Below, piece after piece: positions 3,094-29,878 of a DNA stretch of 30,499 nucleotides. Numbering within the stretch: the first letter of the stretch is position 1; each line of letters starts with the position of its first letter. The notes below the pieces were generated by a model that was not told where the DNA came from, did not search any database, and worked only from the letters and a program-made list of their open reading frames with translations. Location: IMG/VR virus record IMGVR_UViG_3300047548_001270, positions 1 to 30,499 of that record. The stretch is one strand, 5' to 3'. Source of the DNA: a virus. Made by a program: the position numbers and the translations under genes.

Positions 3094-3430
3094 TATCACC
3101 CTCGTCGTATGCGTGTCCAAATATTTCTTGAAAACTTTTCATTATTTGTCTGCTACTTTTACTTCTTCGTCTACCCTTGTTCACTAGGTCTTCTTCCATG
3201 GAAACAAGAGATACTTCTTCGTTAGCTTCATATTGCCTCTTACAAGTTCCGAAGTTAATACTAAGGTCATCATGTAGGTGGTGATCTGCCATAACATCTA
3301 CAGAAGTCACTCTACTTATGCTTTTATTAACACCATCTTTCCAACCTAGATCCTCAGATTCATCTATATCAACTACATCTGAATTGTAGACATGAAAATC
3401 AGGGTCTTGTCTAAGTTTAGTTCTTGGCAT
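3086..3430 (-). CDS. Hypothetical charged protein of the AAA operon
   Basis: About 114 residues and mixed charge: a basic start (MPRTKLRQ), an acidic early part (DVVDIDESED), a central His/Asp patch, and a basic stretch KGRRRSKSSR before the end. No domain is recognised and low structure is expected. The ATG at 3430 is preceded by GGGG nine bases upstream, which fits better than the TTG at 3442. It overlaps both neighbours and so is probably co-translated with the AAA ATPase. A role as an ATPase partner is inferred only from context. Confidence 0.65.
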   Translation of the reverse strand: MPRTKLRQDPDFHVYNSDVVDIDESEDLGWKDGVNKSISRVTSVDVMADHHLHDDLSINFGTCKRQYEANEEVSLVSMEEDLVNKGRRRSKSSRQIMKSFQEIFGHAYDEGDNE

Positions 3431-3752
3431 CTTTTTCCCCAACCCTTCTTAGATATTCAGGTACATACCATGTTCCGGCGTTTTCGTTATTTACTTTTCC
3501 ACTTTTAGTAGTGGCTTCATCAAATTCTTTATTTACTTTTTCATGATACTTACTAGTTCCAAAGTATTGTCTCTTATCGTACTTGAAAACACTAGCACCA
3601 TGTAATCTACTTGCTTTCTCTGATGCGTGTTCACCATATTGAACTTCTTCATCTAGGTCATAATTATCCATCACAACATTATCGATACTCATAGAGCTTT
3701 CTCTATTCTTAAATCTTATCGTAGTTGATGTTGAAAAATTTGATTTACTCAT
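3417..3752 (-). CDS. Hypothetical protein, first gene of the AAA operon
   Basis: A 111-residue, polar, Ser/Asn/Lys-rich protein. A short KRQYFGTSKY segment resembles KRQYEAN in the next protein, in a similar charged setting, but homology is not established. No domain is recognised. It heads the operon: a 12-base AACCGAATCGAA element lies 13 bases before its ATG, and a terminator lies just upstream of that. No clear ribosome binding site is seen, only AAAAAGATT before the ATG. Confidence 0.65.
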   Translation of the reverse strand: MSKSNFSTSTTIRFKNRESSMSIDNVVMDNYDLDEEVQYGEHASEKASRLHGASVFKYDKRQYFGTSKYHEKVNKEFDEATTKSGKVNNENAGTWYVPEYLRRVGEKDAKN

Positions 3753-3765
3753 AATCTTTTTATAT

Positions 3766-3777
3766 TTCGATTCGGTT
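3766..3777 (-). promoter_or_regulatory. Repeated element AACCGAATCGAA (copy a)
   Basis: On the minus strand this reads AACCGAATCGAA followed by ATATAAAAAG. It ends 13 bases before the ATG at 3752. It is one of seven near-identical copies in the window, all in this orientation and each before a minus-strand start. It lies just downstream of a rho-independent terminator, which fits a promoter starting a new transcript. The promoter function is inferred. Confidence 0.6.
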
Positions 3778-7767: not shown

Positions 7768-7783
7768 ATAATCCTTATACTAA

Positions 7784-7807
7784 TTTATAACCACAACGTG
7801 GTATAAT
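7784..7807. promoter_or_regulatory. Divergent promoters with an operator-like palindrome
   Basis: On the plus strand TATAAT lies at 7802-7807, preceded by TGG (extended -10), ten bases before the ATG at 7817. On the minus strand TATAAA lies at 7784-7789, 17 bases before the gene starting at 7767. Between them ACCAC (7790-7794) and GTGGT (7798-7802) form an inverted repeat with a 3-base centre. A protein bound there would cover both -10 elements. Regulation is inferred from position only. Confidence 0.55.
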
Positions 7808-7816
7808 AGAGCTATT

Positions 7817-8188
7817 ATGGCAAACGAAAAGAAGACAGAAAGAGATCACCTAAACGACATGCTCATCGAGTATGCTCCACTTATTAACATGCATGTAAAT
7901 AAGCTTAGAGACAACTTACCCCCACATATTGATCACGAAGATCTTTATGCGGCTGGAATGCATGGTCTAATTGATGCTCTTCATAAATATGACCCTAAAA
8001 AGGGTGCTGCTTTTAATACGTATGCTTCTAAGCGTATCAACGGTAAAATGCTAGATCATATCACTGCACCAACCGCTAGTTCTGTAGATAACTTTCATTA
8101 CAAACAAGCTAAAGAGTTTATGTCTAAACAACCTAAACCTGAAATGGCTCCAGTTACAACTACAACATTTCCAAAGAAAGAAGAGTAA
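7817..8188 (+). CDS. Sigma-28-like protein, region 2 only
   Basis: A 123-residue protein. Residues about 15-80 match sigma-70 family region 2 of the FliA/sigma-28 type: LINMHVNKLRD, then DLYAAGMHGLIDALHKYDPKKGAAFNTYASKRINGKMLDHI, where the last part is the core-binding/-10 helix pair. Regions 3 and 4 are absent; the tail is Thr/Pro/Lys-rich. It may be a minimal phage sigma that directs host polymerase to phage promoters, or a decoy occupying the core enzyme. It is on the plus strand in a minus-strand block, with an extended -10 placed so that the leader is only about 3 bases. Its 3' end abuts a convergent gene. Confidence 0.8.
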   Translation: MANEKKTERDHLNDMLIEYAPLINMHVNKLRDNLPPHIDHEDLYAAGMHGLIDALHKYDPKKGAAFNTYASKRINGKMLDHITAPTASSVDNFHYKQAKEFMSKQPKPEMAPVTTTTFPKKEE

Positions 8189-8584
8189 TTATTCTTCTTT
8201 GTCAATATGTTTTTTAACACTTTCAATCATTGATCTATTAGCTAAATCAATTAGTTGTTCATCTGATTTTTCAGATAAGATTTCATTTACATCTTTATCA
8301 AACTGAAGTTCATATAGAACGTCTGCTGCTGCTTGAGTAGGGTGTTCCCATAGACTATCTTGAAAACTTTCATGGCCACAAGTTGCTAACCAATTACAAA
8401 GTTCTCTTTTGAAGTCAATCATCTTTTCGTATGATGTTGTATCATTTTCAAACAACTCCATAGCTTTTTGAAGAGATTCTGTAACTGCCACACCGAAGTG
8501 TAAGCTGTAATTTCTTACATTATCACAATCCTCTGTAGATACAGGAATACTTCTATCGACTTCACCGCTTACATTTTGAGTCAT
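8189..8584 (-). CDS. Hypothetical acidic protein
   Basis: A 131-residue acidic, helical protein with no recognised domain. The ATG follows GGAGGACAA. The element AACCGAATCGAA (copy b) lies 33 bases before the start, inside the clpP copy 2 coding region, so it may be transcribed separately. Its stop abuts the stop of the convergent sigma-like gene; the shared tail forms an AT-rich hairpin at 8177-8200. Confidence 0.65.
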   Translation of the reverse strand: MTQNVSGEVDRSIPVSTEDCDNVRNYSLHFGVAVTESLQKAMELFENDTTSYEKMIDFKRELCNWLATCGHESFQDSLWEHPTQAAADVLYELQFDKDVNEILSEKSDEQLIDLANRSMIESVKKHIDKEE

Positions 8585-8595
8585 TTGTCCTCCAA

Positions 8596-9294
8596 TTATT
8601 TCTTCTTTGATTTCTTCTTCGATTCGGTTTTCTTTTTAACTGGCTTCTTTGTAGCTTTAACTAAGTCATTTAATAGACCTTTAGCAATCGCCATTGATCC
8701 AGTTTTATCTTCAATCACAATAGGCTTCTTTGAAGGAAGAACTTCTACTGAATAAGATACGGATGGTCTAACCAATGGGAGACCAATAAAATCAATCAAG
8801 CCAATATTCTTAGCTTGTTGAGCGGTAAGATATAAATCTCTACCTTCGTTTTCTTTAATAATTGCTTTTAATTGTTCATACGACATACCACATCTTGCTG
8901 CGATAAGGTCCATGATCTGACGATTAATACGCTCATGTTCTTTAGCGTCTGTCTTAATATCATCTGCATGTCCTACAGCTCCACCAGAAGCCTCATGAAT
9001 CATAATACGAGCATCTGAGTCACAGAATCTAATATCACCTAAGGAAAGAAGTGCTGCACCTGCAGACATAGCTTTACCTTGACATACAGTGATAAATGTA
9101 TTAGGAACGCTTTTCATAATTGAAAGCATTGTGTTAAAGCTATCTACATATCCACCGTATGAATCAATAGTAACTACTATTGGCATACTAGGATCAACAG
9201 ATGCGAGTCTATTTACTTTCTTTCTAAAATCTTTGACAGATTCTTCTGTAAACTTATTAACGACTATCTCATGGTCTTCGAGTTCTTCTCTCAT
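8596..9294 (-). CDS. clpP: ClpP-like serine peptidase (copy 2)
   Basis: A 232-residue ClpP-fold protein. Triad: S77 in GKAMSAGAA, H100 in RIMIH and D153 in GRDLYLTA. The substrate-cleft segment DSYGGYV is conserved. After the fold (about residue 172) comes a 60-residue extension ending in a very basic tail (TESKKKSKKK). The N-terminus is short, with no obvious axial-loop region, unlike copy 1. It may form a mixed ring with copy 1 or be an independent peptidase; both carry full triads. The ATG follows AGGAG. A structured leader precedes it, and copy b of the repeated element lies within its 3' end. Confidence 0.88.
   Translation of the reverse strand: MREELEDHEIVVNKFTEESVKDFRKKVNRLASVDPSMPIVVTIDSYGGYVDSFNTMLSIMKSVPNTFITVCQGKAMSAGAALLSLGDIRFCDSDARIMIHEASGGAVGHADDIKTDAKEHERINRQIMDLIAARCGMSYEQLKAIIKENEGRDLYLTAQQAKNIGLIDFIGLPLVRPSVSYSVEVLPSKKPIVIEDKTGSMAIAKGLLNDLVKATKKPVKKKTESKKKSKKK
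8618..8629 (-). promoter_or_regulatory. Repeated element AACCGAATCGAA (copy b)
   Basis: This copy lies inside the C-terminal Lys-rich codons of clpP copy 2 (reading K-T-E-S-K) and ends 33 bases before the next minus-strand start at 8584. Its presence within coding sequence suggests selection for the DNA element and not only for the protein. The promoter role is inferred. Confidence 0.5.
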
Positions 9295-9354: not shown

Positions 9355-9388
9355 ATATCTGAATCATCGTGTTTAATTATCGAATCTG

Positions 9389-9631
9389 TTACTTTTTTAC
9401 GTATTTATTAATTCTTTTTCTTGCATCTCGTGCCATCCAGTAATTTGTGCATGGAACCCAAACACATGGTGATATATTTTCCATTTTAAGCGGTTCAGTC
9501 CATATTTTAAGTAACTTTAATGTAACTAAAAATCTACCTAATATTTGAGCAGATTCATTGTGTCTATTGGGGTCACTACGGTTTTGTGTATCTATTTTAG
9601 TTAATAATGAAGATTGTACCCACTCTTTCAT
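9389..9631 (-). CDS. TLxRF-family micro-protein (paired paralogue)
   Basis: An 80-residue protein with core FLVTLKLLKIW. Similarity to the upstream protein is not limited to the core: both begin M-[KR]-x-W-x2-SSL and share L-x-[MV]-[ED]-x-[IL]-x-P-x-[VL]-W after it. The ATG at 9631 follows AGGA and overlaps the upstream stop. The C-terminus is basic (ARDARKRINKYVKK). Function is unknown; this is a clear local duplication. Confidence 0.68.
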   Translation of the reverse strand: MKEWVQSSLLTKIDTQNRSDPNRHNESAQILGRFLVTLKLLKIWTEPLKMENISPCVWVPCTNYWMARDARKRINKYVKK

Positions 9632-12562: not shown

Positions 12563-12569
12563 CCGTTCG

Positions 12570-12974
12570 TTATTTTTGAAACAATATCCACTTAATCCCA
12601 ACACCATTCTCATTGGGGAATCTATTGATGTTAGTATAGACACAATCTAAGCAATGACCACTTCGGTGCTTTGCATAGAGAATAAAGCTCTTATTAAGAT
12701 GAATATTAAGAATAGGTTCAAGCTCTACATACCTGAATTGTTTTTCATCTATCTTAGAATTAACTGTAGTATCTAAATCTACAAATTTTAAGATTTGATA
12801 GTTAAAGTGTAGTCCTAGTTCACCCTTCTTCTTTTCTTGATATTCAAAGCTTCTATTTGTGCCTACTGCTTCTTCATATCTAAGGTCTAACTGTTTAAGT
12901 TCAGCGGTATGAGCTGAAGTTAGAAGCATCGACACCATTAATGGTAGTAACAACAAACTCTTTATCCTCTGCAT
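12570..12974 (-). CDS. Exported hypothetical protein, possibly outer-membrane
   Basis: A 134-residue protein. Residues 1-23 form a signal peptide ending at SAHTA. The mature part is rich in alternating strands (LDLRYEEAVG, GELGLHFNYQI, RYVELEPILNIHL, SFILYAKH), as in a small beta-barrel or cell-envelope protein, and ends with an aromatic residue two before the end (FQK). Two cysteines are close together (HCLDC). It starts inside the preceding micro-protein. It may alter the host surface (inference). Confidence 0.6.
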   Translation of the reverse strand: MQRIKSLLLLPLMVSMLLTSAHTAELKQLDLRYEEAVGTNRSFEYQEKKKGELGLHFNYQILKFVDLDTTVNSKIDEKQFRYVELEPILNIHLNKSFILYAKHRSGHCLDCVYTNINRFPNENGVGIKWILFQK

Positions 12975-13137: not shown

Positions 13138-13300
13138 CTACCTCTTTCTCCATAACTTGGCCAATGTATTCACCAGCAGATATTGAAAACTTAAACTTTT
13201 CACCTAATATTTTTTCTATTGTGCGAAATAATTTCACTGTAGTCTTATAAGTATCTGTTACTGTATAAGTTCGTATATTATCTTGCTTAAATTTGATCAC
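13106..13300 (-). CDS. Hypothetical small protein, GTG start
   Basis: A 64-residue basic protein following clpA. The likely start is GTG at 13300, overlapping the clpA stop region by 14 bases, with AGAGG about 12 bases upstream. A T-V-K-L-F segment faintly resembles the TLxRF core but the spacing does not fit, so I do not count it in that family. Function is unknown. Confidence 0.5.
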   Translation of the reverse strand: MIKFKQDNIRTYTVTDTYKTTVKLFRTIEKILGEKFKFSISAGEYIGQVMEKEVDDRLQSVTDQ

Positions 13301-15584
13301 TTCCAGTTGTTACCTCTTCTGGTTTAACTTCTGCTTTAGGTGGCTTTGTAACTTCATACTTAGGAACACCATCAACGATCTTAAATGTAATAGTATCTAA
13401 CTCTTTAATTTCACCTTTAAGAATAGGTTTAACTAATGGCATATCAATATACTTCTTAACTGTTCTAGCAATTGGTCTAGCGCCCATAAGTGGATCATAA
13501 CCTTCTGCACTAATAAAGTCCTTAACTTCTTGTGTAACTACTAAGTTAAAATTCTTCTTCATAAACAACTTATTAATGCTTTGAAGGATGAATTTATCGG
13601 TAATCTTATCGATTACAGACTTATCTAACGAGTTAAAATGAACAATACCAGATAGCTTATTTCTAAATTCTGGTGCAAAAGTGGAATTAATGATCTCAGA
13701 TTTAACCTCGTGTTTAATATGTGCTACTTGTTCTTCTTTAGAATTAAGACCTAAAGGCTTCTTAACTCTTGCCGCTACTGCAGCTCCAGCATTAGAAGTC
13801 ATAAGGACTAATACATTTCTAAAATCTACTTTATTTCCTTCGCCGTCTGTCATAGAACCACCATCGATGATTCCCAGTAAAGCTTCACGAACTTTCTCAT
13901 GTGCTTTCTCAATCTCATCTAAAAGCAAGACTGTATGCGGATACTTGGTAATCTCATTTGTTAAGATACCACCTTCTTTGTGCCCTTCATAACCTGGAGG
14001 AGCACCAAATAGCTTCGCAGCTGAATGCTTTTCACCATATTCACCCATGTTAATTACCATGAAGTGAGACTCTGTGTGCTTAGCTAATTGCTTAGCAAGC
14101 TCTGTCTTACCTGTACCTGTAGGTCCAAGTAATAGAAAGCTACCAATAGGTTGACCATCGTCACCTAAACCGGCTTTATTCAATTCGTAAGCTTCAACAA
14201 CCTTCTCGATTGCTTCTTCTTGGCCGAATAATTCCCCTTTAATGATCTTTTCTAAATCTACATAGGAATTCTTGCCTGTCTTCTTTTTAAACGCAGAAAC
14301 AGGTGTTCCTGTGATTTTAGATACAATCTCTTCGACATCCGACACTGCCGCCGTGCGTCGCGTAGATGAATCATCTGTTCTTAATCTTGCCCCAACAGAG
14401 TCGATCAAGCTTATCGCTTTATCTGGAAAGTATTGAGTGGTAATATATTTACCAGACAATTCAACTGCAGCTTCTAATACTGCTTTAGGATATTTAACTT
14501 TATGGTACTTTTCAAGAACAGGCTTAACACCTTGCTCTAAGATACGTAAAGTTTCTGCTGCACTTGGTTCTTCAATCTTTACTTGCTGAAGACGTCTAGC
14601 AAAAGCTTTATCTTTAGAGATGTGCTTTTTATATTCGTCATCAGTTGTAGCACCGATTAAGCTCAACTCTCCACTTGCAAGCATTGGCTTAATAATGTTA
14701 CTCATATCCGGAGCACCAGGACCTTGTCCAGCAGCTCCAGCTCCCATAACCTGATGAAGTTCATCTACGAACAACACTGGTTGAATGAGACCTTCTTTTG
14801 TCATCATCTTAATGTCTTCTAGTAAGTCTTGAAGTCTTTGTTCAAAATCACCACGGAATTTAGTTCCACCGATCAATCTACTTACTTCTAATGAGAAAAT
14901 CTTAACATTCTTAATTGCTTCAGGTACTTGACCTGATTCAATAAGGGAAGCTAAACCTTCAACAACCTGAGTCTTACCAACTCCTGGAGGACCAACTAAT
15001 ACTGGATTTTTCTTTTTATGGTGAGCTAAGATTTCAACCATACGTTGAACTTCATCTCGTCTACCAATAAGAGGATCAATCTTTCTATTCTTTGCTTTCT
15101 CATTTAAATCATCGCAAAGCTTATATAATTCCTTATATTTACCTTTAGATTTAATGCCAGCATTTGGATTATGTTTGTATCCACTTGATTCTAAATGAAA
15201 GATTGTTTGACTATCTTTAACATTTGTTACAACATATAAACTATTGATAAAGTCTTCAAAGAACATATCTCTTTGCTCTTTACCTGCTGTCTTCTTAACA
15301 TCTTCAATTGTCTTCTTGAAGCTTGGAGTTAAAGCTGCTCCATTGTTTCCGAGCATTCTAGAGAACTGCTCATGAGCTAAAAGATCTGGTTCTTCTTTAA
15401 GAACTTGAGCTTCTAATAGAAGTTCTAATTTATCAATATCACAACCTCTAGAAGCTAGAAACTGTTGATTCTCTAGGTGATCATCATTGATACAAAAAAG
15501 AACGAACTTAGAAACGGAAAGAGTCAAAGACTTCTGCGAAGTAATTGCGCCCATAATAGTATCATCAGTAATTCGATTACTCAT
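13287..15584 (-). CDS. clpA: ClpA-type AAA+ unfoldase
   Basis: 765 residues against about 758 in E. coli. N-domain (1-140, the ClpS docking region), then two AAA+ modules. D1: Walker A GPPGVGKT (198-205), Walker B LFVDE (271-275), pore loop KFRGD (242-246), arginine finger R330/R331. D2: Walker A GPTGTGKT (487-494), Walker B LLLDE (553-557), sensor-2 GAR (701-703). There is no ClpB/ClpC-type middle domain. LGL at 611-613 aligns with the IGL/IGF loop that docks on ClpP. The D2 pore loop reads GYEG instead of the usual GYVG. It unfolds proteins and feeds them to ClpP. It overlaps nothing upstream; its AGGAG spans the clpS stop, so the two are co-translated. Confidence 0.95.
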   Translation of the reverse strand: MSNRITDDTIMGAITSQKSLTLSVSKFVLFCINDDHLENQQFLASRGCDIDKLELLLEAQVLKEEPDLLAHEQFSRMLGNNGAALTPSFKKTIEDVKKTAGKEQRDMFFEDFINSLYVVTNVKDSQTIFHLESSGYKHNPNAGIKSKGKYKELYKLCDDLNEKAKNRKIDPLIGRRDEVQRMVEILAHHKKKNPVLVGPPGVGKTQVVEGLASLIESGQVPEAIKNVKIFSLEVSRLIGGTKFRGDFEQRLQDLLEDIKMMTKEGLIQPVLFVDELHQVMGAGAAGQGPGAPDMSNIIKPMLASGELSLIGATTDDEYKKHISKDKAFARRLQQVKIEEPSAAETLRILEQGVKPVLEKYHKVKYPKAVLEAAVELSGKYITTQYFPDKAISLIDSVGARLRTDDSSTRRTAAVSDVEEIVSKITGTPVSAFKKKTGKNSYVDLEKIIKGELFGQEEAIEKVVEAYELNKAGLGDDGQPIGSFLLLGPTGTGKTELAKQLAKHTESHFMVINMGEYGEKHSAAKLFGAPPGYEGHKEGGILTNEITKYPHTVLLLDEIEKAHEKVREALLGIIDGGSMTDGEGNKVDFRNVLVLMTSNAGAAVAARVKKPLGLNSKEEQVAHIKHEVKSEIINSTFAPEFRNKLSGIVHFNSLDKSVIDKITDKFILQSINKLFMKKNFNLVVTQEVKDFISAEGYDPLMGARPIARTVKKYIDMPLVKPILKGEIKELDTITFKIVDGVPKYEVTKPPKAEVKPEEVTTGSDQI

Positions 15585-15592
15585 TCGTTCTC

Positions 15593-15928
15593 CTATGCTT
15601 CTTCTAATGTGAACTTTAAAACTGTAATTGCTTGAACTCTATTTGGAAAACATGATATTAAATATTGTTTTGCAAGGTCAACTGTAGCTAATTTACTTTC
15701 TGCTATCTCTCTAGAGTATGTACCACATACACCACGCTTCTCAGTGTTTACAATATGAGCCAGCTTTTCTGCTTCTAATTCTGTCTTTTCAAAACATCTA
15801 GAAACAATAAAGATAACTTCTTCAAACGATGTATGAGGATTGTCATGTATAATTACATTATAATTGACAGGTTCTTTCAATTTAACCTTTTCAATTACCG
15901 CAATGTCTTCTTGAATTTTCGTTGACAT
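15593..15928 (-). CDS. clpS: ClpS N-degron adaptor
   Basis: A 111-residue protein. After a short flexible N-terminus (1-20), residues 23-71 align without gaps with E. coli ClpS 28-76 (YxVI..., VCG, then AE-x-K). ClpS binds N-terminal degron residues and delivers the substrate to the ClpA N-domain. The E. coli degron contacts N34, D35, H66 and M40 correspond here to D29, N30, N61 and F35, so specificity is probably altered. It lies directly upstream of clpA. Copy c of the repeated element lies 28 bases before its ATG, and GAGGGATGG serves as ribosome binding site. A phage ClpS is unusual. Confidence 0.88.
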   Translation of the reverse strand: MSTKIQEDIAVIEKVKLKEPVNYNVIIHDNPHTSFEEVIFIVSRCFEKTELEAEKLAHIVNTEKRGVCGTYSREIAESKLATVDLAKQYLISCFPNRVQAITVLKFTLEEA

Positions 15929-15956: not shown

Positions 15957-15968
15957 TTCGATTCGGTT
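15957..15968 (-). promoter_or_regulatory. Repeated element AACCGAATCGAA (copy c)
   Basis: On the minus strand this reads AACCGAATCGAAATA and ends 28 bases before the clpS ATG. It overlaps the last codon of the micro-protein upstream. It probably drives clpS-clpA (inference from its recurrence before gene starts). Confidence 0.6.
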
Positions 15969-17736: not shown

Positions 17737-17812
17737 TGGTAGCGGGAGATGGATTCGAACCAACGACCTCAAGATTATGAGTCTTGCAAGCTACCAACTG
17801 CTCTATCCCGCT
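17737..17812 (-). tRNA. tRNA with CAT anticodon (Met or lysidine-type Ile)
   Basis: Read on the minus strand: acceptor stem AGCGGGA/TCCCGCT, D-arm GAGC-AGTTGGTA-GCTT, anticodon stem CAAGA/TCTTG with loop CTCATAA, a 5-base variable loop, and T-loop TTCGAAT. The 3' end ACCA is encoded. The T-stem has one U-U mismatch (position 50-64). There is no initiator-type C1-A72 pair, so it is elongator tRNA-Met or the tRNA-Ile that needs lysidine at C34. I see no tilS gene. No introns. Confidence 0.9.
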
Positions 17813-18147: not shown

Positions 18148-18159
18148 ATCGATTCGGTT
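18148..18159 (-). promoter_or_regulatory. Repeated element AACCGAATCGAT (copy d)
   Basis: On the minus strand this reads AACCGAATCGATAA, ending 30 bases before the ATG at 18117. The tail CGATAA equals the end of the sigma-28 -10 consensus GCCGATAA. It lies back to back with the nrdB promoter; TCGATT and AATCGA also form an inverted repeat across 18149-18173. Confidence 0.6.
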
Positions 18160-24965: not shown

Positions 24966-25173
24966 GGAACATGCCTTCTGTTATTTTGTTCTCTAAGATG
25001 TTCTTTTGAGCTATAAGCTTTAGCATCTCTTTCTTCTTCATCTCTTTATATTTGTAATCTCTGATATTTACATCATTAATTAAAATATTACAATGGTTGA
25101 TCTTCTTCACCACTTCCAACAATTCCTGCTCCAGATGACTCATCTGAATTGCTTTTATCGTGTCCATCGCCAC
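24958..25173 (-). CDS. Hypothetical coiled-coil protein, GTG start
   Basis: A 71-residue helical protein (LEQELLEVVKKINHCNIL, then EMKKKEMLKLIAQKNILENKI) with coiled-coil character. The GTG at 25173 has a perfect AGGAGG six bases upstream, better placed than for the ATG at 25167. It begins 86 bases inside the upstream gene in another frame. Confidence 0.6.
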   Translation of the reverse strand: MAMDTIKAIQMSHLEQELLEVVKKINHCNILINDVNIRDYKYKEMKKKEMLKLIAQKNILENKITEGMFLE

Positions 25174-25372
25174 AGAAATCCTCCTTGATCTTTTGTAGTT
25201 TATCTACAAATACAACACTATCTAAGCCATAATTCCATACTACAGCTAGTTGATTCTTTTTTAATTCTTCTATGAAGTCATCAATAAGTTGTCTGCCAAA
25301 GCGTTCCATATCGTGCTCAGCTGCCGGCATTGTATAGAGACTTGCATAGAATTCTTTTACTTTGTTTTTCAT
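25088..25372 (-). CDS. Hypothetical protein with acidic tail
   Basis: A 94-residue protein. A helical body (about 1-60) precedes a Gly/Ser/Asp/Glu-rich tail that overlaps the next gene. No ribosome binding site is seen; the repeated element (copy e) ends only 8 bases before the ATG. If the element is a promoter, the mRNA would be leaderless. No family is recognised. Confidence 0.6.
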   Translation of the reverse strand: MKNKVKEFYASLYTMPAAEHDMERFGRQLIDDFIEELKKNQLAVVWNYGLDSVVFVDKLQKIKEDFCGDGHDKSNSDESSGAGIVGSGEEDQPL

Positions 25373-25380
25373 ATTTATAT

Positions 25381-25392
25381 TTCGATTCGGTT
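25381..25392 (-). promoter_or_regulatory. Repeated element AACCGAATCGAA (copy e)
   Basis: On the minus strand this reads AACCGAATCGAAATATAAAT directly before the ATG at 25372, leaving no room for a ribosome binding site. It includes the last base of the upstream stop codon. It is the closest spacing among the seven copies. Confidence 0.6.
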
Positions 25393-27114: not shown

Positions 27115-27386
27115 TAGAGCACATTTGACTTCTTAAAGAAGTAATATGCAAATAAGCTATCAATAGCAATCATAAACAATGCTCCACCAGCTAATGATAA
27201 GGATGCTGACCCTAATAAGGCTAGAGTAACTACTTCACCGATTTTAATAATAGCTTTGATCGAGAAATACCCTGCATAAAGTAAGTTAAACTCTTCATTA
27301 TTAATGCGACCATACTTTTGAAGTAGGTGTGTACCTAAGAAAAGAAGTCCAATTGTAATAGCTAAACCTAATAATACACTTATCAT
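27114..27386 (-). CDS. Membrane protein, about three helices
   Basis: A 90-residue hydrophobic protein with likely helices at 1-22, 50-70 and 68-86, separated by a polar stretch (QKYGRINNEEF). The C-terminus is basic (KKSNVL). The ATG overlaps the stop of the upstream gene. The size fits a holin or envelope regulator, but this is only inferred. Confidence 0.6.
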   Translation of the reverse strand: MISVLLGLAITIGLLFLGTHLLQKYGRINNEEFNLLYAGYFSIKAIIKIGEVVTLALLGSASLSLAGGALFMIAIDSLFAYYFFKKSNVL

Positions 27387-27580
27387 AAATCCTCCAAAAG
27401 TATCCTTTGTGCCATATAATCTACGGCATTATTGTATTCCCAATCGTCATCCCAACCTAATATGACATACATGTGAAACAGTTCATCATCATTAAGTCCA
27501 CAATTACGAAAGACCCAAAATGGATCCTTCTTCAGCATTTGTCGCCTTTGTTCCAATGTCGTCGTTTGATATTCCACCAT
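27383..27580 (-). CDS. Hypothetical protein
   Basis: A 65-residue acidic protein (ending QRILLEDL) with several Trp and Asp residues (GWDDDWEYNN). The ATG follows AGAGGAC. It begins 77 bases inside the metalloprotease gene in another frame; the repeated element (copy f) lies 14 bases before the ATG, within that gene. No family is recognised. Confidence 0.6.
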   Translation of the reverse strand: MVEYQTTTLEQRRQMLKKDPFWVFRNCGLNDDELFHMYVILGWDDDWEYNNAVDYMAQRILLEDL

Positions 27581-28082
27581 CGTCCTCTATCTTTTTCGAT
27601 TCGGTTTCATCTTTGATGTATAAACCTGCACAAAATTTAGTTACAAGATCATAAGAAAGTGTGTGCGCTTCAATCTCACAGAGTCTTTCATAATAAGGAG
27701 TCACAGATAGTCTCTGTCCTTTGTGAAACCTCTCATTAACATCTATTTCAAATAGTCCAAAGAATATTGGGTGTTTAACTTTTTCAAAATGGAATTCACC
27801 TCTTACATGTTGTCTAGCATGCACAAGTTCATGAGCTAGAACATCGATCATACCTATTACAGAGGCATATCCAAGCACTCTAATCTCAACTTTTGTTAGT
27901 GAACCATCAACTCCGTTGTATGAGCCAGTGCATGTTCCACTAGTTCCAGTCTCGAGTCTGTTAACCTCTTGAACAGTAATTATCTCCATTTCTTCATTAG
28001 TTAAACCTAATTCCTTAGAGAAGAACACTGAAGCTAAATTAAATAATGTCTGATTCTTCTTTGCAATATACTCTTGAAACAT
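27504..28082 (-). CDS. Zinc metalloprotease (HExxH)
   Basis: A 192-residue protein. Zinc-binding helix LAHELVHARQH (H84-E85-x2-H88), and a downstream Glu in RLCEIEAH (about 136-138) as a probable third ligand, as in gluzincins. The N-terminal half carries a strand-rich part. The C-terminal 40 residues are acidic and low-complexity, and overlap the next gene. Substrate unknown. This is a further protease in addition to Clp and the trypsin-like lipoprotein. The ATG follows AGGAAT. No export signal, so it is probably cytoplasmic. Confidence 0.8.
   Translation of the reverse strand: MFQEYIAKKNQTLFNLASVFFSKELGLTNEEMEIITVQEVNRLETGTSGTCTGSYNGVDGSLTKVEIRVLGYASVIGMIDVLAHELVHARQHVRGEFHFEKVKHPIFFGLFEIDVNERFHKGQRLSVTPYYERLCEIEAHTLSYDLVTKFCAGLYIKDETESKKIEDDGGISNDDIGTKATNAEEGSILGLS
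27595..27606 (-). promoter_or_regulatory. Repeated element AACCGAATCGAA (copy f)
   Basis: This copy lies within the 3' part of the metalloprotease gene and ends 14 bases before the start at 27580. The coding frame around it reads E-T-E-S-K, close to the K-T-E-S-K that carries copy b, although the two proteins are unrelated. That points to a conserved DNA element. Confidence 0.55.
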
Positions 28083-29226: not shown

Positions 29227-29357
29227 AAAACTCCTAAGATTAACCCCGCACTATATACTAATGCAATCTTCTCTAGGATCCAATTGTATAGAGCAACGAA
29301 CTTATACTTATATATGTACCAACATACGAAGAATAGTATTACAATACTACTCAACAT
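29223..29357 (-). CDS. Small membrane protein
   Basis: A 44-residue frame read by hand: a first hydrophobic helix (SSIVILFFVCWYIY), a short K-containing loop, and a second hydrophobic stretch (IALVYSAGLILGVL). The ATG lies 11 bases inside the upstream gene and the stop overlaps the next ATG. GGAT precedes the start. Function is unknown. Confidence 0.52.
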   Translation of the reverse strand: MLSSIVILFFVCWYIYKYKFVALYNWILEKIALVYSAGLILGVL

Positions 29358-29835
29358 AATATAAATCCACAATTCTAAACACCTCTAAGATGTCAGATTC
29401 TTCCATTAGACCAGCGAAATGATCGAATGCAAGTTCTTTATTCTGTAAGATGATTTTCTCTTTAACTTCTCTATCTGTTATATCTACTTCTTTTCCACTT
29501 GTTGTGCGAAGCTTATATCCTTCTTTTGTCTTAGTGATTGTGTCGATTCTGTCCATTAGGAATTCTTGCTCAATTGTTTCAGCAACAGCATCTTGTAATG
29601 AGAGTTCCATGCTCATAATAGTTTCATTATAAACATCTGGTCCAGTGTTAGTGGCATAACCTTCAGAACCTGAATAAGCTTCATTTTCTAGAGTTGAGTG
29701 GATTTCATCCCAAACACCTTGAGCTCCACCATACATCTTTAATAAAACTCTAATGATAAGTTCATCATCACCAGCCATTTGCTTAGTGACTTCTTCATAT
29801 CTATCTAGAATTTCTTTGTAATGGTCTTTACTCAT
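29347..29835 (-). CDS. Hypothetical acidic protein
   Basis: A 162-residue acidic helical protein (KEILDRYEEVTKQMAGDDELIIRV, ELSLQDAVAETIEQEF) with a short beta hairpin near the C-terminus (GYKLRTTSGKEVDI). No family is recognised. The ATG follows AAGAGG, and copy g of the repeated element ends 31 bases upstream. Confidence 0.65.
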   Translation of the reverse strand: MSKDHYKEILDRYEEVTKQMAGDDELIIRVLLKMYGGAQGVWDEIHSTLENEAYSGSEGYATNTGPDVYNETIMSMELSLQDAVAETIEQEFLMDRIDTITKTKEGYKLRTTSGKEVDITDREVKEKIILQNKELAFDHFAGLMEESDILEVFRIVDLYYVE

Positions 29836-29866: not shown

Positions 29867-29878
29867 ATCGATTCGGTT
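29867..29878 (-). promoter_or_regulatory. Repeated element AACCGAATCGAT (copy g)
   Basis: On the minus strand this reads AACCGAATCGATAACT, ending 31 bases before the ATG at 29835. As in copy d it runs into CGATAA, which matches the end of the sigma-28 -10 consensus, and a TTGAGA stretch follows both at a similar distance. Confidence 0.6.

Follow-up and report, generated by a model that had tools for sequence, protein, structure and literature searches.

What does a sigma-like protein of only 123 residues do in a phage genome, and does it read a short DNA element repeated in the same genome? The question is raised by an open reading frame at positions 7817-8188 (+ strand) of a 30.5-kb virus record, whose 30,499 nucleotides were analysed as a whole and are called the window here. 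The frame is a lone + strand gene within a long run of - strand genes, and the window also carries genes for a phage-type DNA ligase, ClpP, ClpA, ClpS, ThyX and ribonucleotide reductase.

Fold and extent of the protein

The protein matches the Pfam family Sigma70_r2 (PF04542) with an E-value of 6.2e-11 and 42.4 bits, against a curated cut-off of 24, and most of its relatives also score above the cut-off. Regions 2.1-2.4 occupy about residues 8-83. Both by sequence and by model, this part is closest to FliA/sigma-28 and WhiG: FliA and WhiG are its nearest solved relatives, and sigma-28 is the top structural match of the predicted model (Z 13.3 over 78 residues, 1.7 Å, 41% identity). An earlier sequence-only reading, which had assigned the frame to a FliA-type sigma region 2, is thereby confirmed on this point. 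Region 2 is well defined in the AlphaFold model (pLDDT 73), and its DNA-reading helix (RIxGxMLDH) is strongly conserved through the family. The position of FliA Gln46 in region 2.2 is not conserved, so binding of the core polymerase is not guaranteed.

Region 2 is followed by a helix (residues 89-104), read as region 3.0, and then by a disordered tail. This helix is modelled with low confidence (pLDDT about 60). When a profile of nine members was compared with solved structures, the C-terminal helix aligned to region 3.0 of WhiG and of E. coli FliA. Several members of the family keep region 3.0, which is plain in the conservative homologues, for example VPKHIRQQAKQFK in contig G019 and VPKAWRTRVKNLEAL in contig L065, compared with IPRTIRQRQKKID in FliA; in the clade of the window, the helix is kept yet diverged (VDNFHYKQAKEF; VDNFHYKQAK in this member). 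The initial description of the protein as region 2 alone, without regions 3 and 4, must hence be amended. Region 4 and regions 3.1/3.2 are indeed absent in all 11 distinct homologues, but the family alignment indicates that region 3.0 is apparently retained. The mini-sigma, as the protein is called below, is best read as a FliA/WhiG-type region 2 joined to a region 3.0, the extended -10 reader, minus regions 3.1/3.2 and 4.

The homologues were collected, in several uncultured phage contigs, by scanning viral contigs with the protein and then with successive alignments, and by a scan with the neighbouring ClpA; two more came from a contig of a Bacilli metagenome-assembled genome (MAG) and from a DNA scan with the element only. 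Near-identical contigs being counted once, 11 distinct homologues were obtained, with 31-79% identity to the window protein over the aligned part. Members of the family are 100-159 residues long and all stop at the same point, after region 3.0. That the protein is short through a frameshift or an assembly artefact was ruled out by the similar end point in 11 distinct contigs. No region 4 match was found within the window, and none of the contigs examined contains a region 4 family (PF04545/PF08281) above cut-off. The C-termini are variable, with no shared hydrophobic motif of the clamp-binding type.

Among cultured phages, the phage collection yielded no mini-sigma but only full-length sigma factors, the best matches being unannotated 'Bacteriophage sp.' records with full-length FliA-like proteins. 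The sole match in the cellular collection is L065 (SKFZ01000017.1), the contig binned in the Bacilli MAG. Besides a mini-sigma and elements, this contig holds a partial second sigma; it may belong to a phage and have been mis-binned, or it may point to the host.

The repeated element and its initiator register

The sequence-only reading had also noted a seven-copy element without an associated -35. The count stands: AACCGAATCGA has seven matches in the window, every one on the - strand, compared with a chance expectation of 0.12, and none of 100 shuffles reaches seven. An eighth, variant copy can be added. The element is present in 11/11 distinct homologue-bearing contigs. In these contigs, 82 exact matches to AACMGAWTCGA lie on the strand opposite to that of the sigma gene, and the strand of the gene itself has none. 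Variants with one mismatch are in excess over background chiefly at -20 (G), -14 (C) and -13 (C), in the numbering introduced below.

A pyrimidine-purine (YR) step is found exactly 19/20 bases past the first A of the element in 25 of the 31 sites of the first aligned set. No other position has more than 14, the best position expected by chance has about 13, and none of 5000 jittered controls reaches 25. The same position carries the step in 26/33 sites of held-out contigs and, with G019 and the MAG contig included, in 65 of 85 overall. If the step represents -1/+1, CGAWAW falls at -12 to -7, the canonical register of a -10. The majority bases at -9 to -7 are T-A-A, giving a core CGATAA, and positions -9 to -2 are 74-95% A/T versus 65% overall. 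Conservation of the seed bases, which were set by the search, does not count as evidence; positions -9 to -7, the YR step and the strand bias do not depend on the seed. As the first description had it, there is no conserved -35 over the aligned element sites, in the first set and in the held-out one. The distance from the predicted +1 to the ATG has a median of 19 nt, and in six sites the ATG coincides with the predicted +1. At -24 to -21, additional C/T bases are found in some clades.

In the window, the YR step is present at the predicted +1 of four of the eight copies, all of which are on the - strand. The copy at 29868-29878 (predicted +1 29858, TG step) precedes the gene at 29347-29835, and the one at 27596-27606, with no YR step at its predicted +1, stands before the gene at 27383-27580. 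The predicted +1 of the copy at 25382-25392 coincides with the first base (25372) of the ATG of the gene at 25088-25372, and a leaderless mRNA is predicted. The copy at 18149-18159 is located upstream of a tRNA-Met (17737-17812) and the 17.5-kb gene group, and that at 15958-15968 precedes clpS (15593-15928) and clpA (13287-15584). The variant copy, AACAGATTCGA (also given as AACAGATTCGATAATTAAACA), lies at 9380-9390, upstream of clpP (8596-9294), a position that likewise bears an element in relatives. A further copy (8619-8629), with TC rather than YR at the predicted start, is embedded in the 3' end of clpP before the gene at 8189-8584. The last, at 3767-3777, directly follows an intrinsic terminator (3809-3787) and precedes the gene at 3417-3752. 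Terminators upstream of elements (3/85 sites against a mean of 0.72 at random positions) were considered as general support and are not used as evidence.

Beyond the known family, two DNA scans with the element only returned a single many-copy contig, G019, whose 18 copies are all on one strand. This contig, found by its element, encodes a mini-sigma (E 8e-35). Contigs with a single copy, which are mostly short or chance matches, are without a mini-sigma. G016, a 63-kb fragment, carries two copies but lacks a mini-sigma; the read part of this fragment matches the 166-kb relative G009 outside its sigma region.

Downstream of the clpP element in G001 (42705, -), G002 (21299, +), G003 (13638, +) and L022 (5813, -), a common leader resembles acgattcttctca...tccacatgag; it is possibly a structured 5' leader.

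Which factor reads the element

The consensus of sigma-28 promoters is TAAAGTTT-N11-GCCGATAA (PMC2859248), and a composite -10 with an extended and a core part is reported in work that this paper cites. The element and GCCGATAA have the core CGATAA in common. In sigma-28 promoters, this core stands in the same register relative to +1 as the CGAWAW of the element. That the element only "partly resembles" the sigma-28 -10 was therefore too weakly put: the resemblance holds, but the core is CGATAA, and the element as a whole is longer and more structured. It differs from the sigma-28 promoter in having no -35, in WT instead of GC at -14/-13 and in the extra conserved AACMGA upstream.

Because the element and the gene co-occur in 11/11 contigs, the strand bias is 82:0, the initiator step is fixed and replicated in held-out contigs, a scan with the element recovered G019, and the core -10 is sigma-28-like, the mini-sigma is probably a minimal promoter-specificity factor. 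Derived from FliA/WhiG and consisting of region 2 and region 3.0, it would drive a class of promoters without a -35. The minimal transcription switch suggested at the outset, a FliA-type sigma with a -35-less promoter, is supported by these same five lines.

The mini-sigma would be made early from its own promoter, an extended -10 (TGGTATAAT, 7799-7807, + strand) that the host sigma-70 holoenzyme could use without a -35. Transcription from this promoter is predicted to begin at about 7814, 3 nt upstream of the ATG. The motif (T/G/A)GTATAAT precedes the mini-sigma gene in 11/11 homologues, and in nine of them the ATG is at the expected +1, for which a leaderless mRNA is predicted; in the window, the predicted leader is 3 nt long. 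Around this promoter (7780-7820), in the window and in relatives, TTTATACC...GGTATAAT form an inverted repeat, through which the promoter could be divergent and also serve the adjacent - strand gene.

Once made, the mini-sigma would bind the host core RNA polymerase, and we infer that it, and not another factor, then directs the enzyme to promoters of the form A-A-C-M-G-A-W-T (-20 to -13) plus C-G-A-W-A-W (-12 to -7), with a start at Y(-1)R(+1) and no contact at -35. Region 2 would hold the core and open the -10, while region 3.0, perhaps with another contact, would read the upstream half. In this manner, an arm of the phage genome with clpS/clpA, clpP, a tRNA and many small genes would be switched on.

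The upstream half is also where the strongest alternative starts. The AAC at -20 to -18 is further upstream than the expected reach of region 3.0, so another contact may be needed, and it is these unexplained bases that speak most strongly for a partner. The element could be a phage promoter for which a different factor is essential at the upstream half (AACMGAW), the mini-sigma being one component of a split factor; a DNA-binding activator, a gp33-like partner or a detached region-4-like partner are the candidates. The conserved block extends past the usual extended -10 contacts, the extra C/T of some clades reaches still further upstream, and T4 gp55 itself acts with gp33 and the clamp gp45 (PMC7892883, PMC2988020). 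Moreover, a small protein of two 166-kb relatives, G009 and G019, has a C-terminal helix-turn-helix that is weakly similar to sigma region 4.2, with E-values of 5e-4 and 0.06 that do not pass the cut-off. On the other side, the -35 shows no sequence conservation, no contig has a region 4 family match above cut-off, and the C at -12 and the G at -11, unlike the TATAAT of host sigma-70, do not suit that factor. A split factor is a rather unlikely, though substantial, alternative to the mini-sigma acting as the specificity factor by itself.

The second proposal of the sequence-only reading, that the protein occupies the sigma-binding face of the host core polymerase as a decoy or inhibitor and does not read DNA, is very improbable. 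The lack of regions 3.1-4, a size like that of some phage polymerase inhibitors and the early-looking promoter would fit such a role. A decoy, however, accounts for none of the five lines given above; the RIxGxMLDH helix is strongly conserved, several members retain region 3.0, and each homologue-bearing contig has a matching promoter-like element.

It is very improbable that the element is an operator, an RNA-processing site or another cis signal rather than a promoter. Its closeness to start codons makes a role at the RNA level conceivable, but it does not form a conserved palindrome (-17 is A in 55/85 sites), and the fixed YR spacing, the A/T-rich stretch at -9 to -2, several leaderless starts and a core -10 identical to that of sigma-28 suit a promoter. 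An account by GANTC methylation or restriction was ruled out as unlikely, the frequency of GANTC being ordinary. Least probable of all is the host's own FliA holoenzyme as the reader: it shares the core CGATAA, but no sigma-28 -35 (TAAAGTTT) is found at the proper spacing, WT replaces its GC at -14/-13, and the element co-occurs with a phage gene across divergent phages.

Known sigma factors and the genome setting

In phage T4, the late factor gp55 is likewise based on region 2 of a sigma, and the late promoters consist of a -10-like element with no -35 conservation (PMC7892883, PMC2988020). The promoters of the mini-sigma are also -10-like only, without a -35. In contrast to gp55, the mini-sigma family is FliA-derived, retains region 3.0, lacks a conserved C-terminal motif for binding the sliding clamp and has the promoter AACMGAWTCGAWAW, not the T4 late box. 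No gp55 chain is present among the best 60 of 74 solved-structure matches, and PHROGs returned general sigma families only. By analogy, the best reading is that the mini-sigma works like T4 gp55 yet derives from FliA. The mini-sigma differs from FliA/sigma-28 in lacking regions 3.1/3.2 and 4 of that factor. The SigO-RsoA pair of Bacillus subtilis is a split sigma, in which one protein has region 2 only and SigO supplies region 4, so that a -35 is read. The mini-sigma resembles it in that sigma functions are placed on a region-2-only protein, but here there is no region 4 partner above the family cut-off (only a weak, distant candidate) and no conserved -35. The phage sigma factors of phiEco32 and 7-11, distant relatives of sigma-70/sigma-A, have their own promoter class and make the early-to-middle switch (PMC4331800). 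Both cases would share a phage-encoded sigma, a promoter class read by it and an early-to-middle switch, whereas the mini-sigma phages use a FliA-type fragment of regions 2 and 3.0.

T4 gp55 is the textbook sigma reduced to a -10 reader, and it depends on the clamp and gp33. If the mini-sigma acts as proposed, it would be a second such reduction, from the FliA branch to region 2 and region 3.0 with a long extended -10, and would make this a repeatable solution. It would also provide an orthogonal sigma of very small size whose promoter is sharply defined, and recognition of a sigma-28-type core -10 would become testable apart from -35 binding. The promoter rule, an element followed by YR 9-10 nt after TCGA, gives precise, testable start sites in several phage genomes.

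G009 (166 kb) places the element in a larger genome. Its elements are confined to the + strand arm (104.9-138 kb). The - strand arm contains structural and replication genes (tail sheath, DNA polymerase), and the regions upstream of its genes have TATAAT in 23/91 and the element in none. Hence, the element class appears to serve an accessory or middle-type arm, not the virion genes. The TATAAT promoters of the - arm (structural) favour a preceding G (GTATAAT) and have no conserved -35.

A second, RpoD-type sigma with regions 1.2-3 is encoded in G009 (98315-99004, -) and G019 (74428-75123, +). It ends right before the helix-turn-helix of region 4.2, with LSPREEK...FGISD and ...FGLLP, respectively, at the stop. 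The small protein mentioned above (G009 12568-12918, -; G019 about 46066-46578, -) is conserved between the two, with 66% identity and Cys motifs, and is possibly a detached region 4 or a flap partner. It may tentatively be proposed that this lineage does without -35 recognition, with a FliA-type mini-sigma and an RpoD-type sigma truncated before region 4.2 between them splitting the genome into two -35-less promoter classes (AACMGAWTCGAWAW and GTATAAT) and, possibly, a detached region-4.2-like protein acting as their partner.

The window also has homologues of ClpP, ClpA and ClpS, with clpS/clpA and clpP behind elements, which suggests a putative Clp protease run by the phage.
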